Part shown: in pieces, positions 15,450-32,705 of the stretch
Layout: the number at the start of each line of letters is the position of its first letter
Position numbering within the stretch: position 1 is the stretch's first letter
DNA from: Patescibacteria group bacterium
Lineage (GTDB): Bacteria > Patescibacteriota > Patescibacteriia > 2-12-FULL-60-25
NCBI GenBank assembly: GCA_018061755.1
Contig: JAGOTP010000002.1
Coordinates: 1 to 35,308 of the forward strand
Reading direction: 5' to 3'
Length of the DNA: 35,308 bases
The notes under the pieces: generated by a model
Database searches by the model: none
Told to the model about the DNA's origin: nothing
What the model saw: the letters and a program-made list of their open reading frames with translations, nothing else
Position numbers and translations under genes: made by a program

Positions 15450-16724
15450 CTAGGGCAAGAAGGATTTGAAGATGCGCTTCAATGGCTCACTCAAGCGCTT
15501 GAAGGCTTCCCCGCCCTTGGCAGCGTAACTTGAACCACCCTTGGTTGCGACACCGGCATCTTCCCGTTCGGCGTTATATCCCCAGAGAATCAAGCCGACA
15601 GCGGTTGAAAAGGCTGGATCCTGAACGATCTCAGTCAAGGGAGTGATGATACCGACTGGCGTGCCAATTGAAACCGGCAAACGCAGCACCTGACGAGCGA
15701 TTTCCGTCATTCCGCCTAACTTCACACCTCCACCGGTCAAGATAGCTCCGGCTGGAAGCATACCGCTGCGATCAATTTTCTTGAGTTCTTTTTCGACTTT
15801 CTCAAAGATTTCTTCGGCGCGAGCTTCCGCAATGTCTGAAACAAACCGACGAGATACAATCTCGGCATGGTCGCCACCCAATTCACGCAAATCAATTTCT
15901 TCGAAGCGGTTCGCCGATTCAGCGTGGGCGCTCGCGAAGTGTCGCTTGATGTGCTCTGCCAATTCAAGTGAGGTACGCAAACCAATCGCCAAATCAGACG
16001 TGATGTGATCAGCGCCAATCGGGAAAATGGCCGCATGCAACAAATCCCCCTCTTCGAAGACAGCGACGCTCGTCGTGCCAGCACCAACGTTAATTACGAC
16101 CGTCCCAACATCACGTTGACGCGATGTTGTTACAGCTTCCGCTGATGCGAGTGGCGCAAAGACCAATTCACGAACCTCTAAACCTGTTCGAAAGGCTGCC
16201 TTTGTAATGTTTCGAACATGCGACGAGAAGCCTTGAATAATATGCGCTTCCGCCTCAAGTCTGATGCCCTGCATGCCGACTGGGTCTTTGATCCCTGTTT
16301 GACCATCAACGCTGAACGTTTTCGGCAAAATGTGAATAATTTCCTGGTTCGCCGGATTCACGATCGAACGAGCCGCTTCGAGCGCTCGATGGACGTCTTC
16401 TTCGCGAATCTCGCCTTCTGGACGGGAAACACCAATCACGCCTTTGGCGGATTGGATCGTTAGGTGCACCCCACCAATCGAGAGATAGACTTCCGACACC
16501 GGTAGACCAATCTGACGTTCAATCTGCTCCAAAGAAGCTGAAATAGAACTGACAACATCTTCGAGTGAGTTGACGGCTCCTTTTGAGATTCCTTGGGAAG
16601 GCACTTCGACCGCTCCAATAATACTCAAAACCTCGCGCTTGTCCTGACCCATGGAGACCTGACCAACCGCTAAACGGATGGCTGAACTTCCAAGATCAAC
16701 ACCAACAATGAGGTGATCTTTCAT
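15450..16724 (-). CDS. ftsA: Cell division protein FtsA
   Basis: This 424-aa actin-like ATPase tethers FtsZ to the membrane. The N-terminus MKDHLIVGVDLGSSAIRLAV is the phosphate-1 region. The 1C/SHS2 subdomain begins near residue 75 (SEVYLSIGGVHLTIQSAKG). Later motifs GTVVINVGAGTTSVAVFEEG (phosphate-2) and AGAILTGGGVKLGGM (adenosine site) are intact. The C-terminal KRLSEPLKRIFKSFLP is the amphipathic membrane-targeting helix. ATG 16724 shares an ATGA with the stop of dgkA, giving a 4-base overlap and probable translational coupling; the frame extends to a GTG at 16766, which would overlap dgkA more and does not fit the FtsA N-terminus. Confidence 0.97.
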   Translation of the reverse strand: MKDHLIVGVDLGSSAIRLAVGQVSMGQDKREVLSIIGAVEVPSQGISKGAVNSLEDVVSSISASLEQIERQIGLPVSEVYLSIGGVHLTIQSAKGVIGVSRPEGEIREEDVHRALEAARSIVNPANQEIIHILPKTFSVDGQTGIKDPVGMQGIRLEAEAHIIQGFSSHVRNITKAAFRTGLEVRELVFAPLASAEAVTTSRQRDVGTVVINVGAGTTSVAVFEEGDLLHAAIFPIGADHITSDLAIGLRTSLELAEHIKRHFASAHAESANRFEEIDLRELGGDHAEIVSRRFVSDIAEARAEEIFEKVEKELKKIDRSGMLPAGAILTGGGVKLGGMTEIARQVLRLPVSIGTPVGIITPLTEIVQDPAFSTAVGLILWGYNAEREDAGVATKGGSSYAAKGGEAFKRLSEPLKRIFKSFLP

Positions 16725-17095
16725 ACGCGCGCGAGAAAAGTGGTCATGTAAGGCCAAAAGATACACACACCCACGACTACTGCTACCACCGAGGCAATCA
16801 ATACCGCTCCAGCCATCACATCCTTCACATCTCCAGCGTACTCGTTCAGGCGCGGTTTTAACAGGTCAAGCAAGCGTTCGACCGCACTGTTGAGCAATTC
16901 TAGCACTAGGACGGATGCAGACACAATAAGAATAATCAAGCGACGCTCCCATGTGAGACCCATGACAATCGCCAAGGTGTTAATAAAGAGCGCGCAGAGA
17001 CACTGAATGCGAAAATTTTGCTCCGTACGATAGACGGAAAAGATACCACGGACTGCGTGCCGCACGCTTCGGAAAAAGCGGAAAAGGCTAAACAT
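16721..17095 (-). CDS. dgkA: Diacylglycerol/undecaprenol kinase (DgkA family)
   Basis: This 124-aa membrane kinase has three hydrophobic helices (about 32-47, 52-70 and 95-118). The DgkA signature LELLNSAVERLLDL (about 65-78, with catalytic and metal-binding glutamates E66 and E73) and the following DVKDVMAGAV (89-98) are intact, and RTEQNFRIQ (23-31) is the conserved N-terminal segment. In Gram-positive relatives this family phosphorylates undecaprenol, feeding the wall-lipid carrier pool; in proteobacteria it acts on diacylglycerol. The neighbourhood of ftsA and ybeY is the usual one for this family. It overlaps the end of ybeY by 8 bases and ftsA by 4. Confidence 0.95.
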   Translation of the reverse strand: MFSLFRFFRSVRHAVRGIFSVYRTEQNFRIQCLCALFINTLAIVMGLTWERRLIILIVSASVLVLELLNSAVERLLDLLKPRLNEYAGDVKDVMAGAVLIASVVAVVVGVCIFWPYMTTFLARV

Positions 17096-17537
17096 AGCTC
17101 ATCAAACCTTCAATCATTCGTTCCTGTAAACCGAACATGCGCAGCTCTTCTTCTTCGGTCGCATGATCGTAGCCAGCCAAATGCAAGACTCCGTGGATGA
17201 CGAGACGGGCCAGTTCTTCTTGGAGTGGCAAGCTACGGCGTTTAGCCTCTGTCTTGGCGTAGGTCGGACAGATGATGACATCTCCCCAAGCGGTACTCGC
17301 CTTTTGTACCTCTTCCGGCAAGGCACCTTCACGGACTGAAAAAGACAAAACGTCCGTTGGACGATCTTTGCCACGATAGCGTTTATTCAAGTTTTGGATT
17401 TTGGCGGGTGTGACGAAAGACAAGGAAACATTGCATGATCGTTTGATACGCAAGGCGCGCGACAGCAATTCAGCCAGATGCGTCAGATCCGTCTGTGTGA
17501 GCTCACGAGGAAGTTGTGTGACGAGAAAGCGGATCAT
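17088..17537 (-). CDS. ybeY: Endoribonuclease YbeY (16S rRNA maturation/quality control)
   Basis: This 149-aa metalloprotein carries the family's zinc motif H-x3-H-x5-H: H115, H119 and H125 in VIHGVLHLAGYDH. Conserved NKRYRGKDRPTDVLSFSV (about 51-68) precedes it. YbeY acts in 16S rRNA 3'-end processing and ribosome quality control. The start overlaps the stop of the upstream FN3/TSP3 membrane-protein gene as ATGA (17534-17537), and its own end overlaps dgkA by 8 bases. The ybeY-dgkA pairing is common among bacteria; its coupling here to a surface-protein gene is less usual. Confidence 0.96.
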   Translation of the reverse strand: MIRFLVTQLPRELTQTDLTHLAELLSRALRIKRSCNVSLSFVTPAKIQNLNKRYRGKDRPTDVLSFSVREGALPEEVQKASTAWGDVIICPTYAKTEAKRRSLPLQEELARLVIHGVLHLAGYDHATEEEELRMFGLQERMIEGLMSYV

Positions 17538-18985
17538 GGTTGGGATGGAGTGCTGGTAGCTAGTACGGTGCTGGAAGAAGGGGTCGTTTCTGAAGCAAAC
17601 GGATTCGGAGGAAGATCAGTCGCTGAAGTTGTTGTCGTAGCCGCCGCTTCTTGAATCGTCGATTCAGCGACAGGTGCCAAAACTTCTGTGGAACTGGTCG
17701 GAAGATTCAGAAGCGAGCCTGGGCCGGAATTAGCTGGTGTCAGCGTGGTTGGAATAACAGCGGCTCCATTCAGACTGAGGGAGTTTAGCATCATTTCGAG
17801 GGTCGTGCGGAAATTCAGGAAGGGCTGATCGCGCAGATCGTAGACGATATGGAAGACGGCGTCACCCCAGGAGAGCCATGCTTGCATACGATCGGGACCA
17901 TAGACACCGCGCAAACCACCTTTCGTCGTGAACTCTCCCAAGGTATCGACTGGTTGGTTGATGCGTGCAGCGACCCACGTTGCGAGATCTTGCTTAGAAG
18001 GATTGGCTTCAACCGAGATCACAAAACGCTCACCACGGCCCGTCTCAAGATTAAACTTGCTGGCATCCGTTGCATCAACAGAGGACGTCCAAGGGGCGGG
18101 CAGATACATCACCCAACCATTTGGCGAAGTGAATGACTTCACCAAACCAGATTCGAGCAACTTCCCTGGAGCAGCCGTAGCTGGGTTATACAGATGAAAG
18201 ACTTCGTTCCCGTCCAAGAAACGATCACCGTCGCTATCAGGGCGTTGAGCGTTAGTCCCATACACCGTCTCTTCAACATCCGTTAAGCCATCGGAGTCGG
18301 TATCAAGGCCGCCTGGAGGGAAGGTTGGTTTTGGAGCTTCTGGCGTTGGCAAAGCTGGAATAGTAGCCATCGCTTCGTTCGAAGGGGCGGACTCACCACC
18401 AGCGCCAACTGCGATCACACGATAGGCGTAGGTCAAATTCGGCTGCACTGTGACATCAATGAAGGCGGTGCTGTTGGCAGGCAGGGTCGTAATGCGATTA
18501 AAAACCGCTGTCTCATCTTTCGCATCCCGCCGTTCAATGTGGTAGCCCTGTTCGTTCGCAGCCGCATCCGTCCAAGCTAAAGACGCTGCACCCTGACCAC
18601 CTAATACCGTAAGCTCACCGGGAGCAAGCGGAATCGGTTCAACGGCAACCGGCAAAACCACCGCAGGAGCAGGCTTGCGGAACAAAGTCGCACGATTGAA
18701 ATAGACAAAGCCACCAATACTCAAGAGGATCACTCCCACTACCACACCGATCATGGCCCAAGGTGGGCGCTTAGCTTCTGGAGGTCGGATCAGAGCGGAC
18801 TTAGCAGGAACGGGTACAGGTGCTGGCGGCGGAGCTTGCGCTGCCGCGTCACGTTCAGCAGAAGTCAGCGCCTTCAACTTCAAGGCAACGCCATAAAACT
18901 GCTCTGGAATCGTAATGATTTCAGGCATTTTTTTGCCAGGAACGGCAGGGGCGGCGGCGGATGAGGCGGAAGGTGCAAACGACAT
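17534..18985 (-). CDS. Single-pass membrane protein with fibronectin III and TSP3 calcium repeats
   Basis: This 483-aa protein is oriented N-in by its features. Residues 1-75 are cytoplasmic and Ala/Pro-rich, with the peptide MPEIITIPEQFYG at 20-32. A membrane helix spans about 77-97. A fibronectin type III domain lies at about 118-209 (ELTVLGGQGAASLAWTDAAA, then YAYRVIAVGAGGESAPSNEA). Two TSP3-type calcium motifs follow (DTDSDGLTDVEE and DSDGDRFLDGNE, 228-262). Residues 275-405 form a globular domain of unknown family, and the tail (405-483) is Ser/Thr/Pro-rich. ATG 18985 is preferred over a TTG at 18994. It ends in an ATGA overlap with ybeY and starts 16 bases after the next TSP3 gene upstream. 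A calcium-stabilised surface adaptor is my inference. Confidence 0.85.
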   Translation of the reverse strand: MSFAPSASSAAAPAVPGKKMPEIITIPEQFYGVALKLKALTSAERDAAAQAPPPAPVPVPAKSALIRPPEAKRPPWAMIGVVVGVILLSIGGFVYFNRATLFRKPAPAVVLPVAVEPIPLAPGELTVLGGQGAASLAWTDAAANEQGYHIERRDAKDETAVFNRITTLPANSTAFIDVTVQPNLTYAYRVIAVGAGGESAPSNEAMATIPALPTPEAPKPTFPPGGLDTDSDGLTDVEETVYGTNAQRPDSDGDRFLDGNEVFHLYNPATAAPGKLLESGLVKSFTSPNGWVMYLPAPWTSSVDATDASKFNLETGRGERFVISVEANPSKQDLATWVAARINQPVDTLGEFTTKGGLRGVYGPDRMQAWLSWGDAVFHIVYDLRDQPFLNFRTTLEMMLNSLSLNGAAVIPTTLTPANSGPGSLLNLPTSSTEVLAPVAESTIQEAAATTTTSATDLPPNPFASETTPSSSTVLATSTPSQP

Positions 18986-19001
18986 ACAGAGCAAGAGCTA
19001 C

Positions 19002-19931
19002 CTACACGGTACAAGCTGGATTGGCGCAGCGTCCCGGACCAAGTGGATTATACCCTTTCTGAATTTCTACGCTATCCGGAAAGCCATCGCCATCAGTATC
19101 TGGCACGAGCGGATTGGTACGGTATTTTAAGACTTCATCTCCATCGTTCAAGCCGTCGCCATCTGTGTCAGCCACCATGAAATTTGTTCCCAACTCCCCT
19201 TCTCTTGCATCAGACAGCGCATCACTATCTTCATCGACGGTTGGTGGGGTGGTTGGCTCAGCGACCATGCCGGTGTCAGTACTCGGTTGAACCGTACCGG
19301 TGTCCGTCGGAGTAGGCGTAGGAGCAGCATTTGGATCAATCGTCGTTGGAGGTGGAATATTTGTTCCTTCGGGTGGCGTTACGACTGGTTTCGATGGAAT
19401 CATCTCAGGCTCTTCCAGGGGCTGGGTTCCTGGGATGGGTTCATCCAGAGATTCGTCAGATGGGCTGATGGTATCAAAATCAGAGGTTGTCGAAGTAGAA
19501 ACCGTTGGCAAGGTTTCCATAACTTCCTGCGCGGGACGACGAATGGCAAAAAACCAAACACCGCTCGCGATCAAACCCAAACCAACGATGACCGCTAAAG
19601 CGATCAAGACATAATGTAAAACGGGTGGATGATGCGGCTCAAGTGGAGAGGGCGATGACGACATAGGAGCAACGGGCGATGGAACGCTCGCCATCGGTCG
19701 AGAGACCACTTGAGGGGCAGCTGCAGCCTGAGAGATAGGCGCGGGAATAGGAGCTGGGACTGGTGGATTTCGATCCACTCCAGAAAACATATCATCTGCC
19801 GCCGAAGGCAGACTCGAAGGAGCCGACGAGATAGGCGGCATCGCCTGGATTGGTGGAGGTTGAACGGGAGGCACGGAACCCGAGGCAGGAACATCTTGGA
19901 GGGGGAGATTGGCGGGGGTTTGAAGGTCCAT
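19002..19931 (-). CDS. Single-pass membrane protein with TSP3 repeats and C-terminal cysteine pair
   Basis: This 309-aa protein has a Pro/Ala/Ser-rich N-terminal region (1-104), one membrane helix (about 105-131) and an acidic, Thr/Pro-rich spacer (135-232). A TSP3 calcium-binding region follows (233-292: DEDSDALSDAREGELGTN, DTDGDGLNDGDEV, DTDGDGFPDSVEI). It ends in GYNPLGPGRCANPACTV with cysteines C302 and C307. The neighbouring 208-aa protein ends in almost the same way, so the two are paralogues. TSP3 repeats bind calcium and form rigid rods in other proteins. The gene lies 14 bases after the 208-aa gene and 16 bases before the FN3/TSP3 gene, so all three should be on one transcript. No enzymatic domain is seen. 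Confidence 0.85.
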   Translation of the reverse strand: MDLQTPANLPLQDVPASGSVPPVQPPPIQAMPPISSAPSSLPSAADDMFSGVDRNPPVPAPIPAPISQAAAAPQVVSRPMASVPSPVAPMSSSPSPLEPHHPPVLHYVLIALAVIVGLGLIASGVWFFAIRRPAQEVMETLPTVSTSTTSDFDTISPSDESLDEPIPGTQPLEEPEMIPSKPVVTPPEGTNIPPPTTIDPNAAPTPTPTDTGTVQPSTDTGMVAEPTTPPTVDEDSDALSDAREGELGTNFMVADTDGDGLNDGDEVLKYRTNPLVPDTDGDGFPDSVEIQKGYNPLGPGRCANPACTV

Positions 19932-19945
19932 AGAGGGAAAACGTA

Positions 19946-20572
19946 TTAACGTCGACAGTCAGCACGAGCGCAGCGTCCGGATCCTAGAGGATTGTACCCG
20001 TTTTTCGTTTCTTCTGCATCACTGAATCCATCCCCATCCGTGTCCGCCTTCTGCGGATCCGTACCGTAGGCCGATTCGTCAGAATCGATGATGCCATCTG
20101 CGTCCTGATCGAGTGGAGCGGGAGGCGTCGGCGGAGCTTCGGGAACAGGTTCCGGCGCGGATTGCTCTGGCTCAGAACGAGCGGGGAAGGCCAAAGGGTC
20201 AGTCCCCGCTCGAACTTCATCTTCATCCGAAGCTCCATCCCCGTCGGTATCACGCAAGAGCGGGTCCGTACCGAGTGAAGCTTCATTGGCATCCGATAGT
20301 CCATCCCCATCACGATCCTCTGAACCGTTTACGCCAAGGAAATCTCCTTCATTCGTACCCGAAGTTGAATCCAGCGTATTCACCCTCCCCTGATTATTCA
20401 CTACAGATCCATTTGAGGAAGCAACGGGAAGGGGTAATACATTTGAGAAGTCATCAGAATCCACATCTGCCGTCGCTCGAACGCGCAAAAATACGACCAG
20501 ACCAATCAGGAGCAAGGAGCTCAGAATAGCTCCGAACAAGATGCGCGCACGAGGCGAAGAGAGAAAGGACAT
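19946..20572 (-). CDS. Small membrane-anchored TSP3-repeat protein with C-terminal cysteine pair
   Basis: This 208-aa protein has a short basic N-terminus, a membrane helix or signal anchor at 11-30 and a low-complexity spacer to about 84. Two TSP3 blocks follow: 86-125 (DRDGDGLSDANE, DTDGDGASDEDE) and 155-196 (DQDADGIIDSDE, DTDGDGFSDAEE), each with a GTDP turn. A Pro/Glu-rich linker (130-153) separates them. The end, NGYNPLGSGRCARADCRR, has cysteines C201 and C206 and matches the end of the 309-aa neighbour. The gene starts 32 bases after the giant surface protein gene. It is likely extracellular and calcium-binding; a partner role for the giant protein is inference from position only. Confidence 0.85.
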   Translation of the reverse strand: MSFLSSPRARILFGAILSSLLLIGLVVFLRVRATADVDSDDFSNVLPLPVASSNGSVVNNQGRVNTLDSTSGTNEGDFLGVNGSEDRDGDGLSDANEASLGTDPLLRDTDGDGASDEDEVRAGTDPLAFPARSEPEQSAPEPVPEAPPTPPAPLDQDADGIIDSDESAYGTDPQKADTDGDGFSDAEETKNGYNPLGSGRCARADCRR

Positions 20573-20604: not shown

Positions 20605-23600
20605 TTAACGTGCAGCTGGCCCGATTGGTGCCACATCCCAGTTGATGCTATCCGCGGTCGGACCCGTATCCCAACGTCCGAAGGCCATCCAACTCGTTGA
20701 TTCATCCCCTGGCCAAGCCGGACCAGGCAAGTTTCGTCGTTCTGAGGTTTCTCCTGGAATTGGATCGTTTCCACACAACAAGGCCTGTGCTGGATCATTC
20801 TTCACATCGATCACTCCATCACTCGCTTGCTGCTGGAAGACGAGCCAGAACTTTCCCTGACAACGTGGACTGCTTTGAGTTGGAGGCTGGACCTTGTAGA
20901 CGCGAGACTGGGTCACAATCCAGACCGTGCTGCTCGTCTGACGATAGTACTCATGCGATGGGCTCATCCCACGACCGACCGCCGAACGTTGATCCACTAA
21001 GAAGTAGCTGAAGTTGCCCGGTGGACGAATCGCTCCGATCGACCAACGATAGCGCGTGGCCTGAGGTGAATTGGCGACCTGATAACAGACTCCGGCAGCA
21101 CCGCTCGAACAGAACAGGCGGGCGTGAGGATACTCTGCCAAGTTTGGGTTACCTTGAGCTTCTGAACCAGCCAAATCTCCTCCATTTTCACGAATATCGC
21201 GATAACACGGCTGACCATCAACCCAACCTGGAACTCGTAAGGCACTACAACGATCATCTTGGTTCCAAGTTCGTGCTCCACGATTGAAACGGTAAGCACG
21301 CGATGGAGGAAGGATCAAATGGGAGAGCAAATAACGTTGATCGTTATTTTGTAGGTTGCCATACCAGGCATGCACCACCAATGTTTCGTCACGACTCACT
21401 TTTGGCAGTAAGAAGACTTTTCCTGGACGATCTGAACTCTGAATTCCCTGACGTTCGAAGGTTGGTGGGCTGAAGAGGTTCGATTCGTACATCCAGTAAC
21501 CTCCGTTCAAAGCTTCATTATCAGTGGTAGCTGGATTATCGCGTGTGAATTCAACGTAGATGCGATAGCCGCCACAAGCTGCATTACTATTCAAGCCCGT
21601 GAAGGTGAATTGACCTTGTTCGTTCGTAGTTTGCGTCGTGATGCGCCGGCCGTTCTGAAGCAACGTTACTGTTGCGCCAGCCACCACACGATCTGGATAG
21701 ACCGCATCGCGTACCACGGCTGTGATACTGCCCGTTCCGCCCGTTGCAGCACAAGTCTGACAGCCAGCAAAACCACACATGCGACCACACGTGATGATGT
21801 CACGGATTGGTCGAGATTGGTCACAACGCGCGACCGCTTCAGCCGCAGCGACTTCAATCTGTTCCGTACGAGCCGGATCGGCGACGTCCGTACAACGCAC
21901 ACGTTCAGCGAAGTCGAAACCCAAACCGCTACAGGTAAGCGCACTCGCGTCTTGGACGCCACCCGCTCGACCGAAGTCGGCTCCGTCACACTGCTCCGCT
22001 CCATCCAATTCATTGTTGCCACAGAAACCACCAGAAGAAGCCGTCATGCGACACTGGTTGGTACAAGCTGCACAAGTCGCCCCGTATTCCGCCGTATCAC
22101 ATCCGCGGCCATTATTTGTACCGAAGTCACACTCTTCAGCGCCAGTCTGGATAATGGCATCGCCACAGACGTTGGCCTGACAGCGGTTAGTACAAGCGTC
22201 GTTATCGTTGCGATTGGCGTCATCACAGACTTCACCCGTATCAAGTACACCATCCCCACAGAAATTCGCTGGGCGACAAGCTGACCAGGCCGTCCATTTA
22301 CATTGGTTCGCAACCGGTTCACCGGCTGGCATGGTACAGGTACGCGTGCGACGAGTTGGATACATGATACAGCGGTAGGTCGTGCCACACACACCTGAGG
22401 TACAACTGTCTTGGCCCTGAGGACAGGTACAATCCGCTCGATCGCGCAGACCACCAGCACATTGACCAACTTTAATTCCTGTACAGCTCCGGTCTGCTGC
22501 ATTACGAGCACATAAATCACTTCCGCTAATTGGGCCAAGCGCACAGTCACGTCCTTGGTTCGTCGGATCACAAGCTTCACCGATTCTTCCCGCTGAACAA
22601 ACTGCTGAGGTCGTTGTTTCTGGATTGTTGCTATCGCATTGCTCGACTGGACCGCCATCACCGATGGATTGTGTCTGCACGACGCCATCTCCACAATGTG
22701 GAGCCAGTGAACGACAGTCCGTTCCACAAGTATTCCCGAGCACGCAACGAGCTCCGCCCGCATCACGCGTATCGCAGTAGTTCCCGTTATTCGTCCCCAA
22801 ATCACAGGTTTCACCCGCGCTTAGCTGTTCATCGCCACAGACTGAGGCAAATCCATTACAGGTACGGTTACAATGACCATAGGTTCCATTCAAAGCACCA
22901 TCGTCACAGGTTTCACCTGTTTCAATGCGACCGTTGCCACAGACTACATTCGGCTGACAAGCTGCGCCTGGTTGATCAACGTACCCGCTACAATCAGAGC
23001 GACAGATCTGCTGACGACGACCCGTGTTTTCGATGCCACCAACGGCACAAACAGTACGCTGCGTTTGACCAGGCTCACAACGTTCACCTGTTCCAACAAT
23101 TCCGTCACCACAGATGCCGCCTAATCCCATAGCTCTCCCCGTACACACATTGCCGAAGCGCAATTGGCCACCTTGTGGGGTACAGGTTCCGGTCGAAAGA
23201 ACTGTTCGACGATCAGGGCCAAGGTTTACACAATCGGAATCCTGACGACAGACACGACCATCACTCGCGCCTTCGGACACACAACGGCGTGTTTCCGGCA
23301 GAATCGACGGTGTATATTGTTCGATCGGTAAATATTCAAGCTCTGTTCCAAGCTCATAACGGCTGCCTCGATCGACCGAACGGTACTGATAGAGACGAGA
23401 TACGCTGCGTGGATTACTTGGCTCAAGGACTGGACAGCGATAGGTGCTGTTTACTGCGTTCCAACAAGTACTTGGATCAAAGCCTTCAACAGCCACACAG
23501 CGGTCATTATTTCCTCCACAATCCGAGTCCTCCATACAAGCCTGACGCGAGCTCAAACACTGACCACAAGACACGTGGACGTTCAATGGATCTTCCGGAA

Positions 23601-26600
23601 GCGGCTTGCCGACGGCTGTTGCCAAAACGGATTGCCAACTTGGCCAACGACTGGTCACAAAGGTCTGCAGGAACGTTCCACCGCTTAACTGCGGGTACTG
23701 ACCATCACGCCGTTTCGCGCCCTCTAATTCAGCTGCCATGTATTGCAAGTCCGCAATACGTTTCAAGTCACGCTGGAGCTTATCTTTGGCGCTAGCACAA
23801 TAGCCGCGAGAATCGTAACGGACACATTCCCAATCAGCCGTACAATTCACGATCTGGTTGGTACCCGAACGACGGAAGACATCGCCTGTCTGCGTTCTAC
23901 ACACGTTATCTGCGTCACGCAGCAAGTTAGTGTTGAAGGTGAAGTTATCTACCAATTGCTCAAAAATCTGACGTGTTTCAACCTGCGCATCCGGGTTATG
24001 CGATAAGACGTAAATGTCTGTCGAGAGATTTCCTTCCAGCAAGTTCACGTTGGTTGAAGCGATGTAGAGCGTCGAACCATCGCGAATCGCTTCGTAGCCA
24101 TCAACGGTCGCTGACTGAGGAGTTCCAGCAAAGCCTTGTGACTGATACCAATCCTTAGGCGACAAGTGGAGCGGATTCGCCATGACACGCAAACCGATGG
24201 CATCCGAGCGGAAGGCTGGACGGCTAAACGAGAAGATATACTGACGCTTCACGCCACGGGCGACATCAGATGGGTTGTCGTCCAGACGATTCACAAGCAG
24301 TTCCGGCAAGTCATCGCTCGGACCAGGTGTTTTCGCATCCAAACAGTACATCGTCGCGAAGTGATAATCGCTATCCTCGAAGCGTGGTGGTCGGCCTGGC
24401 AAGTTACCCGGTGGGACCCATGGGTTATCACACAAGATAACCGTCGAGAGCAAAGATGTGCTCTGCGTCGTACCAACCGTCGAAGGCGTCTTTACACGAT
24501 CTGCCGTAATCGTGACGCCAGTCGCAATCAGCGATGTGCCACGCAGATTCTGTGCCGTGGTTGTTGCAATCGCAATCTGAGGCGTCGATGGTGAACCAGC
24601 GACCGTCAAAATATTCGGGCGAGACGACACCCAATCGCGCCAGATCCAGCTGTACAAACCTGGGATCGGAGACAGTGGAACAACCTCTTCACGATGGAAA
24701 GACACGGCTCGACCTACATAGCGGTGTGCTTCACGGGATTTATAGAACACGGTTGGATGCTCGACATTCGTATCATTCAAGCGTAATTCGTCGATCGTAC
24801 ACACACGCTCACCGGTCGTGAAACGCCACGTGATATTTCCATCCGCGTAGATGCCATTCGCTCCACGTAAACCGCGACGAGTGGACGAAACGGTTGCGTC
24901 ACGGATGGCAGGATCACCCAATAGGATCACTTGATATTCGGTATTTCCTTGCAAGGCCTCATCCAGCAAGAAAGCTGCCGTTGTTCGACCCGCTTCTTCG
25001 TTCGTTTCAAAGACAACCGTTCCCTTGGCAGTTCCGACACACCATGGACCATCCGCAGCGGAAGCTGGCAAGAAGAGGGCTTTGATACGAGCCACGATCG
25101 AACGAAGTGGTGTACTCCAGTTAAAGGCTGTTGGGCGAGCTGCATCCAAACGAGTTGTTCCTGTTGGACAAGCTTCGGTCGTTGACTGGGAAGAGATCAA
25201 GAAATTTCCGCGCACGCTTCCCTCATTCATCAATTGATTGAATTCAGCAGAAATCAAGACGTTGCGACAAACATCGGTCGCGCCCGCTCGTGGATACGGC
25301 GTGGCACGTGGTCGAACCGCACAACAACCACCGCTCGTGAGACCCGTTCCTGGCGCACGACATTCGGCCTCTCGCTGGTAATTACATTGAACACCATAGA
25401 TCGCCGTTCCATTACGACCCTGATACGTCGCTCCGATATTCGACGACATACGTCCATTATTCCCGGTCAATTCTGCTGGCGTCGGTTCACGTAAGCCCAC
25501 GATTTCAAAGAGCTGACGGTTGGTAATCTCTGAACGCAGACCTTCTGCACCCGTTTCGCGGGCTACAGCTGGTGCTTCACATTGTTCACCCGTACCAACT
25601 ACACGATCTCCACACAATGATGGATCTGGATGAGCTGGGCTCGAACCCGACAAGAGACAGCGTGCCGTACAGCCAGGCTGACCATCACATTCTTCACCCG
25701 CTTCCATGCGGCTATTACCACAGCATTCAGCATCACTAACGCGCTGACAACGATTCGTTCCTTGGTTCAGACAGGTATTCACATCGCACAAGGCCGAAAA
25801 ACGCGTACCTGCGTAACAGCGTAAGGCGCCACCGACCATGCGACAGTATTGTGAATCCGCACGGCCTGGTGTCTGCATTTCACATGATTCACCCGGTTCG
25901 ATGCGTCCGTTTCCACACAAGCGACGTTCGGCACTTGAGGAACCAGCGTGCAAACACTGTGCCGTACAACCCGGAGCTCGACCACTTGATGTGTAGTCAC
26001 AAGTTTCTCCATCCGACAGATCACCGTTGCCACAAGTCGCACCACCCGCTTGCGAACCTAGAGCCTGACAACGATCGCTACAGCCACGACGCTCAACCAC
26101 CTGACAGGAACCACCTACGCCACAGCTGCCTGGAGCACTCGTACATTCCTGTCCCGGCGTTGCTCCACCGACACAGACACGACCCGTATCACACTGCTCA
26201 CCGCGCTGAATCGAACCATTACCACAGGTTCCCGCTGGCGAGTCCGTCAGTCGACGAACCGGATTCCAGAGACAGCTAGATGAACATTCACCCGCTACGC
26301 CGTTGCTCTCTCCGTTATCACACTCCTCTGCTTCTTGTGCTCCCGCTGGAAGCAATGAACAGTTCTCAGCGAAGCGCGTCACACAATCCAGATCACCAAC
26401 GGCACAAGCTCGTGTCGGATCTGAACGACGATGACAGTAGTTCACGTCAGTTGTTTCAACCGTGCGATTTCCACAGACCGCCGTTCGTCCAAAGACTCCA
26501 TTCGATCCGGCGTTCAAACACTGACTGGTACAAAATTCAGGTAAACGATCCGCCAACGAAACACTTTCACGAAGAGCGCCCAAACGCACGAAATCAGCAA

Positions 26601-29600
26601 CACGAGCATCAGAAGTCGTCCAGCTGGTACTGCGTTCTGAAACCAACATCTGACCATCACGACTACAGGTATCAGGCGCGCTGATCGGATTTGCGATAAA
26701 GAGCTGACGCATGCCAAACATGGCCTCATATTTTTCACTTGGAGCCACATCGACACGAGCGGCGGAACAATAGGCGTCATTGCCAGTCTTGATACGAAAT
26801 TTCCAAGAGAAACCGACAGGATCAGAGCTATTCAAACCCGTCAGCGGCAATCGACCGTAGGTTGAACGCAGACCGTCTAATCCACCAAGAATCGTCGCGA
26901 TGTAGAATTTTCCAGGCTCAAGCTGGCTCACACGAATCGTTTCACCCGTCGCTGGGTCACGTGCAGGAGTCGTTGCTTCAAGCTTCATCATCGTATCCGT
27001 CGCGAAAGTTCCCGGCGGTGTCAGGATATCGATGATCGCTTCCGAAAGATCGAGCGTACGATCAAATTCACGACACGCCTCATTGGTACAACGCTTGATC
27101 TGGATATTTGGTTGACGACGACCAGCGATCGTTCGCGTCAAACTTACACGATCCATGCTGACATTGAAGCGCGCCCAGACAGCGGCGTTGACACAGGCGT
27201 CATTACAGTTTGGCGCGTACGAGATCACCCGTGGCGGCGTCAGACGAACCGTCAATTGACCAGATCCACGAACTGGAACTGGCGGCGTTGGACGGGCTAG
27301 TTCTGCCACGATCAAAACTGGGTCACGATCGGTTGCGCCCAGACCCGTAACAGTACTACTCGAACTTTGCGAAGAGTTGTTTGGAACAACCGAGGCACGA
27401 CCAGCATCAGACACGCTCCAGTTCCAACCCATCGTGTCCGGATTAAGCTGGACACACATATCTTCGGCTCTTGGACTAACGGTATAGTCATCCTTACTCA
27501 AGCCCAACTGATCCATGACGTAGGTTGATGGAGAAACCGAGACAGAACGAGCGGCACACAAATCAGAGCCTTCTCTGGTTCGGAAACGATAGGCATAGGC
27601 ATTGCCACGACCGTACTGTTCGGCATTTTCAAGCATGGCACGACTACCATCCGCACTCGTCGAACGAATCCCTGTCGTCAAAATAATCTGGTACGTCGCA
27701 TTCGGTGCCCACACACCACCCGTTGGTGTGAAGACGAAGTGGTCTTGAACTGAACCAGTGAAGAAGTTGATCGCTCCTTCAACACGTTCTGGGGTTCCGG
27801 AAGAACATGGGTCGCCCGTTACACCCGTACAACGACGAACCAAGACATTCGTCGTATTCACCGTTGCACGCTCGATATGCATGTTGAAGCGTACAACCGC
27901 CTGCGCGTTCACACAGGTCGAGAGGCTACGTGGGCTAGGTGACGGCGGATCTTCGTTGGTACATTCTTCGACAACTCGCGGCGTTTGATACAAACGACCG
28001 GTCGACGTTCTCCAAGCAAAGGTGCTCGTCGTAGCTCCAAGTGCCGCACACACTCCACCGACGGCACAACTTCCATCCGGACAACAAGCCAAGGACGGAC
28101 CACAGATGCCTGGACTCGTAAGACAGCTTGCGACCGAGAAAAAGGCATCGTTCGAAACCTGTCCGCCGACCGCAACCCGCACCGCTCCCGACCCAGCTCC
28201 CGCTGGAACACGGGTTCGGATCTCCCCTTCGCGCCAACTCTCACTCCCCAAAATACCGGCTGGACGTGGACTGGTTGAGGTTGCTCCCGCAAACGTCACG
28301 GCTCCAACACTTGAACCGAAACGCTCACCCAAAATCGTGACACCCGTTCCAATCGGACCTGCAATCGGTTGAATGGCGCAAATCCCCGGACCTGGCGCAC
28401 CGTCGATAACCGTAAACGCTACACGATTACTCTGGGTAATTCCATCACGCTGCACGTAAATCTCGTAACGACCAGCTCGCACCGGCTGCTCTTCACCCAA
28501 CCCTCCACGCAAGATAGCTGGAACCTTGATCATGACTGCTGCGTCCGACCAGAAATTGCTACCACATTGTGCAGGAAAACGAACATCCGCCTCACCTAAG
28601 GCGTTAGTCACTGGATTGCGGAAAAAGACTTTACCTGCCGAACCAAAGTTGCGGCCAAGTAACGTCACATAAGAACCAACCGTACCCGTCGTTGGACGTA
28701 GTTGATCGATTGCTGGCGGACTCGTAATGACACGGTCCGCAAAGCTAAAGGAAACTGGATTGGATTCGAGATCACCAACTCTCGCTCGAACCGCATATCC
28801 ACCCGGCGGAACCAAAGGAGCGGTCAAATCCACAGCCGTTGGACGCCAAGCCGTCACCGATACATCTTGATCATTGAAATATAAACGACCTGTTGTATTC
28901 CCCAAGTTCACACCTGCCAGCGACAAACGAGCTCGATCTCCGACTGTTCCCGAACCTGGACGAATCGCACACAAACCAGGGCGTGCGATTCCGTTCACAC
29001 GGAAATCGGTCAAGCGTGGACCACGTTCATCGTTACTCACATCAGACATGCCGTTCGTTCCATGAAATACCTGGAGAGAGCTGGTCGTCGCACCTTCTGG
29101 AACAGCTACGATGATTTGGGTTGGCGACCAAAAGGAACTTCCCGCCGCACACGCCGCTGGCGCCGTCGCCGGTCGGCCAGCAAACAAGACACGACCTGTG
29201 GTTGTTCCAAAGTTCGCCCCCGTGATCGTCACGTACGTCCCTGGTCGACCATCCGTCGGACTAAACGAACCAATGATCGGCTGCTCAACACAGCGACCAG
29301 ACAGACAAATACCACCTGCACAATCAACGCCACGACTACAAACCGCTCCGACACAGCCGCCTCCGCCCAATCCTCCACAATCAACCCCTGTTTCACCACG
29401 AGCTCGACAAACTCCGCCTTCGCACAATCCGCTTAGACATCCGCCTCCGCTCGTACAAGCTCCTCCGATACAGGCTGGCTGCCCAGGTCGTCCACAACCA
29501 ACTTCTGCTCCAACAGGCGCGGCACGACACAAACCTCCTTCACACAATCCACTCAAACAGCCAGCTCCACTGGTACAAGCTCCACCGACACAAGCACGCT

Positions 29601-30783
29601 GGCCAGCGCCTCCGCAGCCAACCTCTGGCACACCCGTATCCTGCACTCCATTGAAATAGCTTCTTGGACGGACAGCCACCGTTACAGCCGTGGTCGTCAC
29701 ACTATTCGAATCGATATCCCAGACATGAGCCTCGATACGATGCGTGCCCGTTGTCGCTCCACGCGTATCCCAGACCACCGTCGCGTCATGCAACGTCGGC
29801 GTTGTACTCGCCGTTGTGGCATCACGTCCGATCCGACGCCCATCAACAAAGACATCCGTCAACGAAATCCCGCCGTCATCAGACGAACGAACCGTCACGC
29901 GAACCGAATCGCCCAGAGGAATTCCCTGACCATCCAGCGGCGTCGTAATCGACGAAACTGGCGGATTTACGTCAACCAGATTTCCCGTCTTGAAACGAAC
30001 TTCGCAAGCTGGCACATTCTGACCACAGGCAATTGTCAAACCAGAACGGGAACGCAAGCTGCGAGCAACTTTAGCGATGTATTCTGTATCTTGAGCAAAA
30101 CACTTGCGACCCGCATTTGGCGCTGGACAGGCTGCCGATGGAACGAACGTCACCAATCCCTCAGAAATACTCAAAGCACCTTCCACGACTTGGTTATCCG
30201 AAGCTCGTACAACCGTGATCGAACTCGTCGCCGTTGAAGGCATGATGTCGCGCGTAAACAAGAAGCGGACTTCTACGTTACGAATACGGACCGGGCCACT
30301 CGGCATGATCGAACGAACCTGGAAGCCGAGAGAGCCACCAGCAGCGCCCAATTCACCCCCTAGAGAGCCGCCATCGCTCGTGCTCGCGATCTGACCGCCT
30401 CCTCCGGTCGCATCCATGAGCTTATTCAGAATAAACGTCACAAATCCCCAGGAACAAACGATGATAATCAAACCAATAATGGCATTTCGGATGGTTTTCT
30501 GGGCCTTTTCTACTTTTTCCGCATCCCCACCAGCCGTCATCCACAAGAAACCCGCGTATAAGACCAAACACAAGAGAATCGTCCCAAGTGTCCCTAGAAA
30601 AATATTGATGACGCGAGCCGCGATGATCCGCGGATCGGCATTCCCCAGCTGAGCCGCCTCGCCTACCTCCGCGAAGGCAGCGTTATCGACCTGCGCCAGA
30701 GCTGTATGGCTTTGCAGGAAGAACAATCCCCCGCCGAGGGCGAGGATCATTCCGGAGAGACAGAGAAGGCGACGAAGGTTCAT
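20605..30783 (-). CDS. Giant (3392 aa) T4SS-pilin-hairpin surface protein with IPT/TIG, Ig-like and DUF4215 cysteine-rich modules
   Basis: Domain order by residue: signal peptide 1-30; two-helix T4SS-pilin/VirB2-like hairpin about 55-122 (INIFLGTLGTILLCLVLYAG, then basic loop GGDAEKVEKAQKTIRN, then AIIGLIIIVC); SbsA-like Ig 158-267; Ig-like 272-372; three short Cys-rich repeats 388-500; four IPT/TIG domains 502-884; three Ig5 plus Big-like modules (951-1162, 1184-1398, 1825-2097); DUF4215 arrays 1520-1740 and 2558-2935; a pseudopilin-head-like segment 2330-2486; and a carboxypeptidase-regulatory/CnaB-like domain about 3016-3066. Residues 3067-3392 are unassigned. I count about 165 cysteines. 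It is probably surface-exposed and membrane-anchored by the hairpin, with an adhesive or structural role. Its ATG overlaps the stop of the 641-aa gene as ATGA. The frame is unbroken over 10 kb. Domain names are by eye; the hairpin, IPT and DUF4215 calls are the firmest. Confidence 0.9.
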   Translation of the reverse strand: MNLRRLLCLSGMILALGGGLFFLQSHTALAQVDNAAFAEVGEAAQLGNADPRIIAARVINIFLGTLGTILLCLVLYAGFLWMTAGGDAEKVEKAQKTIRNAIIGLIIIVCSWGFVTFILNKLMDATGGGGQIASTSDGGSLGGELGAAGGSLGFQVRSIMPSGPVRIRNVEVRFLFTRDIMPSTATSSITVVRASDNQVVEGALSISEGLVTFVPSAACPAPNAGRKCFAQDTEYIAKVARSLRSRSGLTIACGQNVPACEVRFKTGNLVDVNPPVSSITTPLDGQGIPLGDSVRVTVRSSDDGGISLTDVFVDGRRIGRDATTASTTPTLHDATVVWDTRGATTGTHRIEAHVWDIDSNSVTTTAVTVAVRPRSYFNGVQDTGVPEVGCGGAGQRACVGGACTSGAGCLSGLCEGGLCRAAPVGAEVGCGRPGQPACIGGACTSGGGCLSGLCEGGVCRARGETGVDCGGLGGGGCVGAVCSRGVDCAGGICLSGRCVEQPIIGSFSPTDGRPGTYVTITGANFGTTTGRVLFAGRPATAPAACAAGSSFWSPTQIIVAVPEGATTSSLQVFHGTNGMSDVSNDERGPRLTDFRVNGIARPGLCAIRPGSGTVGDRARLSLAGVNLGNTTGRLYFNDQDVSVTAWRPTAVDLTAPLVPPGGYAVRARVGDLESNPVSFSFADRVITSPPAIDQLRPTTGTVGSYVTLLGRNFGSAGKVFFRNPVTNALGEADVRFPAQCGSNFWSDAAVMIKVPAILRGGLGEEQPVRAGRYEIYVQRDGITQSNRVAFTVIDGAPGPGICAIQPIAGPIGTGVTILGERFGSSVGAVTFAGATSTSPRPAGILGSESWREGEIRTRVPAGAGSGAVRVAVGGQVSNDAFFSVASCLTSPGICGPSLACCPDGSCAVGGVCAALGATTSTFAWRTSTGRLYQTPRVVEECTNEDPPSPSPRSLSTCVNAQAVVRFNMHIERATVNTTNVLVRRCTGVTGDPCSSGTPERVEGAINFFTGSVQDHFVFTPTGGVWAPNATYQIILTTGIRSTSADGSRAMLENAEQYGRGNAYAYRFRTREGSDLCAARSVSVSPSTYVMDQLGLSKDDYTVSPRAEDMCVQLNPDTMGWNWSVSDAGRASVVPNNSSQSSSSTVTGLGATDRDPVLIVAELARPTPPVPVRGSGQLTVRLTPPRVISYAPNCNDACVNAAVWARFNVSMDRVSLTRTIAGRRQPNIQIKRCTNEACREFDRTLDLSEAIIDILTPPGTFATDTMMKLEATTPARDPATGETIRVSQLEPGKFYIATILGGLDGLRSTYGRLPLTGLNSSDPVGFSWKFRIKTGNDAYCSAARVDVAPSEKYEAMFGMRQLFIANPISAPDTCSRDGQMLVSERSTSWTTSDARVADFVRLGALRESVSLADRLPEFCTSQCLNAGSNGVFGRTAVCGNRTVETTDVNYCHRRSDPTRACAVGDLDCVTRFAENCSLLPAGAQEAEECDNGESNGVAGECSSSCLWNPVRRLTDSPAGTCGNGSIQRGEQCDTGRVCVGGATPGQECTSAPGSCGVGGSCQVVERRGCSDRCQALGSQAGGATCGNGDLSDGETCDYTSSGRAPGCTAQCLHAGSSSAERRLCGNGRIEPGESCEMQTPGRADSQYCRMVGGALRCYAGTRFSALCDVNTCLNQGTNRCQRVSDAECCGNSRMEAGEECDGQPGCTARCLLSGSSPAHPDPSLCGDRVVGTGEQCEAPAVARETGAEGLRSEITNRQLFEIVGLREPTPAELTGNNGRMSSNIGATYQGRNGTAIYGVQCNYQREAECRAPGTGLTSGGCCAVRPRATPYPRAGATDVCRNVLISAEFNQLMNEGSVRGNFLISSQSTTEACPTGTTRLDAARPTAFNWSTPLRSIVARIKALFLPASAADGPWCVGTAKGTVVFETNEEAGRTTAAFLLDEALQGNTEYQVILLGDPAIRDATVSSTRRGLRGANGIYADGNITWRFTTGERVCTIDELRLNDTNVEHPTVFYKSREAHRYVGRAVSFHREEVVPLSPIPGLYSWIWRDWVSSRPNILTVAGSPSTPQIAIATTTAQNLRGTSLIATGVTITADRVKTPSTVGTTQSTSLLSTVILCDNPWVPPGNLPGRPPRFEDSDYHFATMYCLDAKTPGPSDDLPELLVNRLDDNPSDVARGVKRQYIFSFSRPAFRSDAIGLRVMANPLHLSPKDWYQSQGFAGTPQSATVDGYEAIRDGSTLYIASTNVNLLEGNLSTDIYVLSHNPDAQVETRQIFEQLVDNFTFNTNLLRDADNVCRTQTGDVFRRSGTNQIVNCTADWECVRYDSRGYCASAKDKLQRDLKRIADLQYMAAELEGAKRRDGQYPQLSGGTFLQTFVTSRWPSWQSVLATAVGKPLPEDPLNVHVSCGQCLSSRQACMEDSDCGGNNDRCVAVEGFDPSTCWNAVNSTYRCPVLEPSNPRSVSRLYQYRSVDRGSRYELGTELEYLPIEQYTPSILPETRRCVSEGASDGRVCRQDSDCVNLGPDRRTVLSTGTCTPQGGQLRFGNVCTGRAMGLGGICGDGIVGTGERCEPGQTQRTVCAVGGIENTGRRQQICRSDCSGYVDQPGAACQPNVVCGNGRIETGETCDDGALNGTYGHCNRTCNGFASVCGDEQLSAGETCDLGTNNGNYCDTRDAGGARCVLGNTCGTDCRSLAPHCGDGVVQTQSIGDGGPVEQCDSNNPETTTSAVCSAGRIGEACDPTNQGRDCALGPISGSDLCARNAADRSCTGIKVGQCAGGLRDRADCTCPQGQDSCTSGVCGTTYRCIMYPTRRTRTCTMPAGEPVANQCKWTAWSACRPANFCGDGVLDTGEVCDDANRNDNDACTNRCQANVCGDAIIQTGAEECDFGTNNGRGCDTAEYGATCAACTNQCRMTASSGGFCGNNELDGAEQCDGADFGRAGGVQDASALTCSGLGFDFAERVRCTDVADPARTEQIEVAAAEAVARCDQSRPIRDIITCGRMCGFAGCQTCAATGGTGSITAVVRDAVYPDRVVAGATVTLLQNGRRITTQTTNEQGQFTFTGLNSNAACGGYRIYVEFTRDNPATTDNEALNGGYWMYESNLFSPPTFERQGIQSSDRPGKVFLLPKVSRDETLVVHAWYGNLQNNDQRYLLSHLILPPSRAYRFNRGARTWNQDDRCSALRVPGWVDGQPCYRDIRENGGDLAGSEAQGNPNLAEYPHARLFCSSGAAGVCYQVANSPQATRYRWSIGAIRPPGNFSYFLVDQRSAVGRGMSPSHEYYRQTSSTVWIVTQSRVYKVQPPTQSSPRCQGKFWLVFQQQASDGVIDVKNDPAQALLCGNDPIPGETSERRNLPGPAWPGDESTSWMAFGRWDTGPTADSINWDVAPIGPAAR
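21979..23112 (-). repeat. Second DUF4215-type cysteine-rich array within the giant gene
   Basis: Residues 2558-2935 hold seven units of the form CG(D/N)G-x-(I/V)-x-x-GE-x-CD: CGDGIVGTGERCE (2558), CGNGRIETGETCDDG (2615), CGDEQLSAGETCDLG (2650), CGDGVVQTQ...EQCD (2697), CGDGVLDTGEVCDDA (2842), CGDAIIQTGAEECD (2873) and CGNNELDGAEQCDG (2921). Spacing is irregular, and extra Cys-rich inserts lie at 2729-2840. The family is known from myxobacterial and other large extracellular proteins. Confidence 0.8.
23326..23796 (-). other. Putative pseudopilin (type IV pilin/GspG-like) head domain inside the giant protein
   Basis: Residues 2330-2486 read RDLKRIADLQYMAAELEGAKRRDGQYP (split for length as RDLKRIADLQYMAAELEGAK plus RRDGQYP), then WPSWQSVLATAVGKPLPEDPLN and later YQYRSVDRGSRYELGTELEY. 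This is the order found in the globular half of pseudopilins: R-x4-RxxDL-x-helix, G-x-YP, LPxDPxN, Y-x-Y and YEL-x-x-xLE. The hydrophobic N-terminal pilin helix is absent. A cysteine-rich insert (2406-2450) interrupts it. Confidence 0.5.
25564..26226 (-). repeat. First DUF4215-type cysteine-rich array within the giant gene
   Basis: Residues 1520-1740 hold five units: CGNGSIQRGEQCDTG (1520), CGNGDLSDGETCDY (1584), CGNGRIEPGESCEM (1623), CGNSRMEAGEECDG (1688) and CGDRVVGTGEQCEA (1724). A degenerate unit (CGNRTVETT) precedes them at 1437. Units diverge freely between the fixed Cys, Gly and Glu positions. Confidence 0.8.
28132..29280 (-). repeat. Four tandem IPT/TIG domains within the giant gene
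   Basis: Residues 502-884 contain four Ig-like IPT/TIG units, each starting with a P-x-(I/L)-x-x-(I/F)-x-P-x-x-G pattern and a G-x-x-F/L-G turn: SFSPTDGRPGTYVTITGANF, CAIRPGSGTVGDRARLSLAG, QLRPTTGTVGSYVTLLGRNF and CAIQPIAGPIGTGVTILGER. Units are about 80-100 residues each. These domains are common in adhesins and receptor ectodomains. Confidence 0.85.
29284..29622 (-). repeat. Three tandem ~40-residue cysteine-rich repeats within the giant gene
   Basis: Residues 388-427, 428-467 and 468-500. Units 1 and 2 are nearly identical (both have GGACTSG, GCLSGLCEGG and CRA); unit 3 is diverged (CVGAVCSRGVDCAGGICLSG). Each has six or seven cysteines, so knottin- or EGF-like disulfide folding is likely. 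Codons of units 1 and 2 differ at many synonymous sites, so the duplication is not recent. Confidence 0.85.
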
Positions 30784-32705
30784 GACCGTGGGGTAGTTGG
30801 GTAAGGACAGGCAGTGGCACGAGGTGTAGCAACACCTTCAACGAAACAGCAATTCGGTCGATCGGCGGTTCCACGACACTCACGCGTCGTGTTATCTGAA
30901 GCCGTCGGACTGAAGCAGTTTTGATAGATGTTCTGCACTCCCGAACCGATTGTTGGATAGTATTCCGGGTTGAAACGAGCTGTAGCGGCGGCGTAAATAC
31001 GATGATCGATCAAGATTCGGCTAGAAGACGGCGCTTGGCCAGGCATGGCTGGCTCGTTTCCTACTAAGTTCAACATACGCGGACGGAACCAAAAGGTATC
31101 CGACGGCGGTTCGTTGGTTGATAGTTTGATATTTCCAGAGTTGACTGTCGAAGCCTGCAACAAACTGTTGAAATCAGCACTTGGCGATTCATTGACTGGG
31201 ATCAAGCCTGTTTCCGGCGCTGGACTGAAGCCACGCACAAACGGCGCACTCCGATCAGGATCAGTCAGGGTCGTGAATGGGTAAGCGTAGTTATCAGCCG
31301 TCGGACCCTGGGCACGACTATTGCCGTTTCCATCCAAAGAGTTGCTAGCCGCATCAACCAAGCCGTCATACAAGCCACGAATAATCGCTGCCTGCGAGCT
31401 GCTCGAAGATTCAAGTGTAGCCGCTCGTGCCGTTACGTTGATAGCCGCATCCGAAGGCAGACAGAAGATCTGACGTCCACAACTATTCACTCCACACGCT
31501 AAATTGGTCGTAAATTCAACCGTGCTATAGGCGTTCGACATGCGGAATTCACCCGCCGGTCGTCCAACCGCTCCGCCCGCCAGCGGTCGAGCCGTTATCT
31601 CAATATTATTGAACCCAGCTCCACCATCTCGTACCAAGCCAGCCGCACTGGTTGGATCCATCGGTTCATTGAAGTTCAATTGCACAATCACATTCGGCGC
31701 ATAACGCCCACCTGCCACCGGAATGGCGCTCAAGACTCTGGGAGGAGTCAGATCAATGCTCGTCGACACTTGAAAAGCCCAGCGATAGCCAGACGAACGA
31801 CGACCTTGGAATACGGGCTGACCATCTTCCAGGCGCAACCCCGTAGCACCACCCGTCAATTCGACGGTATAGTCCTGCGGCTCAGCCGAACTGCCAAGAT
31901 AATCAACGGGTCGCATGACGAACGTCAGTCGATCCGGCGTGAAACGCACACGCACCTGGTCAGTCGTAAGCGCCCGCGTGCGCCCTTCTGACGTGCGATA
32001 AATGCGAATGTTATCGGTATTCAAGCCAATACGCGTACTAGTCGCTACATCATCACTCAAATCTTCTGGCGTCTCGTGATCATCATAGTCTCGAATGAAC
32101 GAGTTGATCTTCACCGGTTGAGCAAAGGTCACGATAATCGCCGTGTTGCGTGGCACATCACGTGAAGCTGGCATTGGATAGACATCGCGAATGATTTCGC
32201 CCAACGCACCCGACCGATCAGGGAAGCCACTCAAACCGATTGAGTCGCCACCATTTCCACCCAAAAACCCATCTTCCGTTGCGATCCCGCCTAATTGACG
32301 CATGATAAATGCGACAATTGCAAAGGAGGATACAAAAATAATCAATCCGATGACAGCGTTGCGAATCGTGTCTTTAGCTGTTTGCGTCTGCTTCGCGTCC
32401 CCACCAGCCGTCATCCACAAATAACCTGCGTACAAAATATAGCCAAGCAAAACAATGCCCAATAAGCCGAAAATCACGTTGATAATTCGGCCAATCAAGA
32501 CAAACAAATCTACCGATCCATCGACGCCAGCCGCAGTTGCGACTTCGGTCAAAGGAGCAGCCGCGTCGGGGGCAGATTGCGCGAGGACAGCCGCGGGAAC
32601 CGTCCAAAATAGCGCGCAGACGAACACAGCCGCCAAGAACGCCCGCACGAAAAAACGTGTAGGTATCATGGCGGCTGTGGCGCTCCTGCGACCTTTCTCA
32701 AGCAT
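30780..32705 (-). CDS. T4SS-pilin-hairpin protein with SbsA-like Ig domains (641 aa)
   Basis: The start of this protein is built like that of the giant protein downstream. It has a signal peptide (about 13-42), then a two-helix hairpin at about 66-140 (RIINVIFGLLGIVLLGYILY, AGYLWMTAGGDAK, NAVIGLIIFVSSFAIVAFIM) that closely matches the giant's. Extracellular Ig-like units of the SbsA type follow at about 171-315, 322-478 and 488-580. The end is Cys-rich (CFSPTASDNTTREC, NCCFVEGVATPR) and stops at PYPTTPRS, just where the giant's corresponding segment runs into another Ig domain. ATG 32705 is used; ATG 32669 (MIPTRFF) would give a cleaner signal peptide. It follows yqeY by 32 bases and overlaps the giant gene by 4. 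The T4SS-pilin-type domain is known from many CPR proteins; the function of such fusions is not established. Confidence 0.88.
   Translation of the reverse strand: MLEKGRRSATAAMIPTRFFVRAFLAAVFVCALFWTVPAAVLAQSAPDAAAPLTEVATAAGVDGSVDLFVLIGRIINVIFGLLGIVLLGYILYAGYLWMTAGGDAKQTQTAKDTIRNAVIGLIIFVSSFAIVAFIMRQLGGIATEDGFLGGNGGDSIGLSGFPDRSGALGEIIRDVYPMPASRDVPRNTAIIVTFAQPVKINSFIRDYDDHETPEDLSDDVATSTRIGLNTDNIRIYRTSEGRTRALTTDQVRVRFTPDRLTFVMRPVDYLGSSAEPQDYTVELTGGATGLRLEDGQPVFQGRRSSGYRWAFQVSTSIDLTPPRVLSAIPVAGGRYAPNVIVQLNFNEPMDPTSAAGLVRDGGAGFNNIEITARPLAGGAVGRPAGEFRMSNAYSTVEFTTNLACGVNSCGRQIFCLPSDAAINVTARAATLESSSSSQAAIIRGLYDGLVDAASNSLDGNGNSRAQGPTADNYAYPFTTLTDPDRSAPFVRGFSPAPETGLIPVNESPSADFNSLLQASTVNSGNIKLSTNEPPSDTFWFRPRMLNLVGNEPAMPGQAPSSSRILIDHRIYAAATARFNPEYYPTIGSGVQNIYQNCFSPTASDNTTRECRGTADRPNCCFVEGVATPRATACPYPTTPRS

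Follow-up and report, generated by a model that had tools for sequence, protein, structure and literature searches.

Two neighbouring genes on the minus strand of the window, the 35,308-nt stretch of DNA analysed here, encode a 641-aa protein and a giant of 3392 aa, both beginning with a signal peptide and a hairpin of T4SS pilin ancestry, and this gene pair is conserved across class ABY1, whose members are tiny bacteria of a parasitic type. A pilin part of a second kind, a type IV (T4P) pilin head recognised by its sequence pattern, sits within the giant. The pair occupies 34% of the window, matching the third or so estimated in an earlier note on this DNA, and ~1% of the 1.15 Mb assembly. 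The pilin ancestry and the anchoring of both proteins are well supported.

Architecture of the gene pair

The open reading frames and the hydropathy profiles agree with the earlier description of two genes overlapping by ATGA, each encoding a signal peptide and a two-helix hairpin (Table 1). A hydropathy scan identified exactly three hydrophobic segments in each protein, corresponding to the signal peptide, TM1 and TM2, with no later membrane segment after TM2 in either. The signal peptide ends in AQ in both proteins (LAQ in the 641-aa protein), and a charged loop lies between the two membrane helices in both, as indicated by hydropathy and, for the giant, by AlphaFold2. The core common to the hairpins reads LYAGFLWMTAGGDA in the giant and LYAGYLWMTAGGDA in the 641-aa protein.

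Table 1. Features of the gene pair, with coordinates on the window
Feature	Position	Strand	Description
641-aa pilin-fusion protein G1	30780..32705	-	Signal peptide, hairpin ~50-140, Gly-rich linker, Ig-like ectodomain (Big_5), conserved Cys
PF18895 pilin module of 641-aa protein, residues 50-150	32256..32558	-	
ATGA overlap, 641-aa stop and giant start	30780..30783	-	
Giant, 3392 aa	20605..30783	-	Signal peptide, complete mature-pilin module, Gly linker, Ig-like/TIG/Big_5/Cys-rich modules
Giant pilin module, residues 35-134	30382..30681	-	PF18895 match at 63-118
Giant residues ~150-372	29668..30336	-	Gly linker end and two Ig-like domains, the second Big_7 at 275-352; confidently modelled
Giant residues ~502-1044	27652..29280	-	IPT/TIG repeats and Big_5 (949-1044)
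Giant class-specific module, residues 2130-2460	23404..24396	-	First part weakly PsbP/LpqN/DcrB-like
Embedded type IV prepilin head domain, giant residues 2331-2407	23563..23793	-	Without prepilin signal
Giant Cys-rich myxo_disulf repeat / DUF4215 region	22177..22263	-	Best stretch residues 2841-2869

Both proteins are longer than a short stand-alone VirB2-like pilin, extending beyond the pilin domain by ~500 residues in the 641-aa protein and ~3270 in the giant, and Pfam and NCBIfam bear out the earlier reading of these extensions as Ig-like and Cys-rich modules. Apart from T4SS_pilin, the Pfam domains above cut-off are Big_5 in the 641-aa protein and TIG, Big_5 and Big_7 in the giant, with CarboxypepD_reg and DUF4215 found below threshold in the latter. 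NCBIfam identifies Cys-rich myxo_disulf repeats in the giant, whose total Cys count is 167.

Pilin hairpins and the embedded type IV pilin head

PF18895 (T4SS_pilin) matches the giant with 34.3 bits and the 641-aa protein with 32.8 bits, both above the curated cut-off of 26.6, in line with the T4SS-pilin-type domains proposed earlier. Of the two profiles that the earlier note had named for checking the hairpins, PF18895 is matched by both, whereas the hairpin of the giant gave no match to PF04956 (VirB2/TrbC); this profile is matched by 12 of 21 relatives, with a best value of 7e-6, and neither full-length protein matches it at E<=0.01. The curated cut-off of 40 for NF045849 (Mbov_0395 family pilin-like conjugal transfer protein) was missed, with 30.1 and 34.0 bits. 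Among solved structures, no pilin was matched in a profile search with the hairpin. A structure search with the N-terminal model of the giant yielded Ig-domain proteins for the most part and gave no information on the hairpin.

The AlphaFold2 model of giant residues 30-372 (61 sequences, mean pLDDT 89) exhibits two helices at ~51-82 and ~88-127, followed by a disordered Gly-rich linker at ~129-149 and Ig-like domains. Stand-alone pilins of the same and related genomes align nearly gap-free, over their full mature length, with giant residues 35-124, and several of them end in an ATxG-like tail like the one preceding the giant's Gly linker. Judged from this alignment, the hairpin of the giant corresponds to an entire pilin and is more than a loosely similar anchor. 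Over residues 30-372 in 61 orthologues, five of the eight invariant columns fall in the hairpin (I59, G78, G86, A94 and G104), and these positions are likewise unchanged throughout a set of 21 sequences, most of them stand-alone pilins, so the hairpin is not a chance resemblance. The hairpin is also the best-conserved part of the N-terminal 340 residues sampled in these orthologues, with a mean pairwise identity of 0.51 compared with 0.31-0.34 for the Ig-like domains that follow.

Phylogenetic trees place the family-level giant hairpins in one clade (0.988) and most partner hairpins in others, among stand-alone pilins. The core noted earlier as shared by the two proteins is a feature of the pilin family; within its own genome the hairpin of the 641-aa protein is 52% identical to a stand-alone pilin and 46% identical to that of the giant. 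This placement bears on the reading that one pilin-anchored gene was recently duplicated in tandem to give the pair, with a shared core of no functional meaning, for which the adjacency of the genes, their similar N-termini and the 46% identity between hairpins could be cited. The trees speak against it, since in most of the class the two hairpins fall in separate clades, each nested with different stand-alone pilins; in addition, the two ectodomains differ in architecture and the pair is class-wide. On the evidence of the trees, the duplication reading is largely refuted and would be very improbable.

The earlier domain reading of the giant held for the pilin, Ig-like and Cys-rich parts but missed the type IV pilin head. 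Residues 2331-2407 bear the pattern RDxxRxxD...G.YP...W...P.DP.N, and outside the class the head profile matches mostly short proteins starting with the type IV prepilin signal GFTLIE, with one exception (L143) in which tandem heads occur in a longer protein. The giant has neither the prepilin (class III) signal nor the N-terminal T4P helix, carrying instead a Sec-type signal peptide with the head placed internally, and the head is therefore read as a domain rather than as a mark of a T4P subunit. A T4P pilin head thus sits within a protein headed by a T4SS pilin. A profile search found no solved pilin structure for the embedded head, and the PsbP/LpqN/DcrB-like resemblance of the part preceding it, at E 3e-3 or worse, is not significant alone.

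Conservation across class ABY1

A scan of public genomes yielded 505 relatives, of which 80 were retained, mostly Ca. Uhrbacteria with some Magasanikbacteria, Falkowbacteria and Buchananbacteria; these lean to close relatives because they were chosen by similarity to the 641-aa partner. The closest public matches are Ca. Uhrbacteria (ABY1), which supports the CPR setting suggested earlier. The giant follows the 641-aa gene directly, or after one pilin-sized gene, in 75 of the 76 loci with downstream sequence, the sole exception being L091. The order hisS-S21-yqeY-641-giant is fixed, with hisS-S21-yqeY preceding the pair in nearly all loci with upstream sequence, and ftsA/ftsZ lie further along beyond the pair in the family genomes.

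The giant-specific module (residues 2130-2460) was detected in 167 of 191 sampled class genomes at E<1e-10, and 110 of the 191 have a strong match (E<1e-20) to the partner's ectodomain. Neither was found at full length in the sampled Patescibacteria of other classes, where matches cover only generic Ig-like or T4P-head parts. The coupled pair that the earlier note had suggested seeking in CPR genomes is conserved across the class, and its hairpins match a pilin family rather than generic anchors only.

The giant could alternatively be mainly a structural envelope protein, spanning the cell wall or surface layer and tied to growth and division, rather than an adhesin; its place near ftsA/ftsZ would then reflect such a function. 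Its near-universal presence in the class is compatible with such a role, as are the gene order kept between hisS-S21-yqeY and ftsA, with the pair inside it, in the family genomes examined and the abundance of Ig-like and Cys-rich modules, which are typical of stiff rods outside the cell. A Pfam search, however, detected no peptidoglycan-binding or surface-layer domain in the giant, and the neighbourhood by itself says little, given that hisS, S21 and yqeY have no function in common. An envelope role is considered improbable.

Several further observations concern the locus and the module. Between the giant and ftsA, the conserved stretch at window positions 16721-20572 encodes TSP3-repeat proteins (208 and 309 aa), a 486-aa fn3 protein, and proteins of 149 and 124 aa. 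In L060, L087, L106, L109 and other public loci, 15 of them in one clade, the yqeY upstream of the pair reads through into a signal-peptide-like segment and a degenerate pilin-like hairpin, ~250 aa in all, while L096 has a separate 127-aa pilin-like gene upstream of the pair instead of the read-through. The largest relative read through without N is 5756 aa (G391); a frame of 14,266 aa in another relative (G002) was rejected as a run of N, not protein. One genome (G031, L024:13006-19501) has two more genes with a module of the giant's 2175-2448 type, one of 1566 aa and one cut by a sequence end, neither of which is matched by the hairpin profile.

A possible pilin-derived base and its relation to known systems

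The fusion of a pilin to a large protein, regarded as unusual in the earlier note, is real, yet six further pilin fusions occur in the same genome, on contigs C12, C24 and C6. The pair lies on C7 and the pilin array on C12, and VirB4 is located on C9/C13, so that the pair is not beside virB4. The VirB4_CagE match, with a PrgI-like gene adjoining, has an E of 1e-26 and falls below that model's curated cut-off. The VirB4 pieces at the ends of C9 and C13 (L034, L035), with a ComF-like gene beside, overlap in sequence and are therefore probably one gene split by the assembly. VirB4 occurs in 181 of 191 class genomes, and its co-occurrence with the giant is uninformative because both are near-universal. 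The single-contig, 96% complete genome G409 contains the giant module and the partner ectodomain, while VirB4 was not found there at E<=1e-20.

These data bear on whether the hairpin was recruited solely as a membrane anchor, holding the large ectodomains at the surface as monomers with no pilus-like assembly. Such a reading is a serious contender, somewhat short of an even chance: neither protein has another membrane segment, hairpins of the same genome bear very different ectodomains on either side, with 88%-identical hairpins on dissimilar C-termini, the pair does not adjoin VirB4, and G409 has the pair with VirB4 undetected. Against it, a hairpin serving only as an anchor would not have to retain the full length of a mature pilin and the invariant Gly/Ala positions of stand-alone pilins, or to match the stand-alone pilins of its own genome.

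The two hairpins of one genome are closer to each other than to any sampled orthologue in G037 (0.79), L069 (0.73) and L110 (0.65), and G391 resembles these; such clear matching is limited to ~4 of 64 genomes plus G391, with few close relatives of those sampled. In G037, a stand-alone array pilin ~190 kb away falls in the same cluster as the hairpins of the pair, and a pilin-sized gene stands between the 641-aa gene and the giant in L044, L045, L054, L061 and L068. The same-genome matches, the array pilin of G037 and the intervening genes hint at co-assembly and are suggestive only, as the genomes are few, local sampling is thin and recent gene copying would look alike.

A pilin-derived base or pilus, in which the hairpins would assemble with each other and/or with stand-alone pilins and hold one or a few giants for host contact, is the favoured reading and is given roughly even chances. 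Both proteins would be exported by Sec with removal of the signal peptide, and the complete T4SS-pilin hairpin would enter the cytoplasmic membrane, with the charged loop predicted inside and the long C-terminal ectodomain outside. The hairpins would probably then join each other and/or the cell's stand-alone T4SS pilins, and one or a few giants, on this base or pilus, would reach out to the host cell. The giant is presumably only a minor, tip or base subunit, since a 3270-residue ectodomain on every pilus subunit would be unpackable. Pilins of the F pilus have both termini on the outside and the loop towards the lumen (PMC5018250), which makes fusion of a C-terminal ectodomain geometrically possible. 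The PF18895 scores, the full-length pilin alignment, the nesting in the trees, the shared Gly/Ala invariants and the presence of VirB4 in the genome count for a pilin-derived base, and the separation of the pair from the C12 array and VirB4, the PF04956 non-match, the solved-structure search that matched no pilin, the small number of genomes with matching hairpins and G409 count against it. More tentatively, and rather unlikely in this full form, the 641-aa protein, the giant and stand-alone T4SS pilins may form a hybrid ABY1 attachment organelle, a membrane base or pilus tip displaying a several-thousand-residue fibre with a type IV pilin head and binding hosts near the secretion channel.

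The Saccharibacterium Ca. S. epibionticum cannot grow as an epibiont without its T4SS pilins (PMC10633639), and the pair links ABY1 to the pilin family implicated in that genetically tested organism. It is a near-universal, class-specific candidate for host attachment or use in ABY1 that keeps a fixed place in the genome. It also suggests that giant proteins can have a pilin as their base.

T4SS pilin arrays are already known, while no description of the coupled giant pair was found in the literature searched on CPR pilin fusions and giant surface proteins, mostly open-access texts. PMC12102498 reports Patescibacterial VirB2 arrays of 2-11 genes, and T4SS_pilin/VirB2-like arrays (PMC12102498, PMC10633639) share hairpin family, signal peptide, topology and phylum with the pair. 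Array pilins are described as small and often near virB4, in contrast to the 641- and 3392-aa proteins encoded away from the array by yqeY (and ftsA in family genomes), and the passages of PMC12102498 consulted contain no mention of a pilin-ectodomain fusion. The VirB2/TraA/TrbC conjugative pilins (PF04956; F pilus, PMC5018250) have, like the pair, two membrane helices, a charged cytoplasmic loop and outward termini, but PF04956 does not match the hairpin of the giant, and the pair differs from them in size and in the attached ectodomain. The GFTLIE prepilins of Patescibacteria share the head pattern RDxxRxxD...YP...W...P.DP.N with giant residues 2331-2407, whereas the giant, Sec-exported and T4SS-pilin-headed, bears this head mid-protein without prepilin signal or T4P helix. 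The PrgB-type MPF-FATA adhesins of Gram-positive conjugation resemble the giant only as an idea, a large surface protein for donor-recipient contact, with no sequence relation shown, and according to PMC12102498 were not detected in Patescibacteria. In Ca. Yanofskyibacterium / Minisyncoccus, highly expressed T4SS-pilin-domain and Ig-like proteins are proposed to act in host contact (PMC10936435); like the pair, these are surface proteins of Patescibacteria that contain T4SS-pilin or Ig-like domains, but they belong to Paceibacteria, with pilin and Ig-like proteins under different gene numbers and no class-wide coupled giant pair described there.

The pilin array of the same genome (G000) contains both stand-alone and fused members. 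On C12 (L009:4026-11874), its six genes encode proteins of 131, 155, 305, 477, 693 and 773 aa, the last three Cys-rich with the hairpin mid-protein or at the C-terminus, and a homologous substrate-binding-protein gene lies beside each array locus examined. The 88%-identical hairpins belong to the proteins on C24 (L010:6196-7800) and C6 (L011:4719-7151), one of which has a C39-like peptidase domain.
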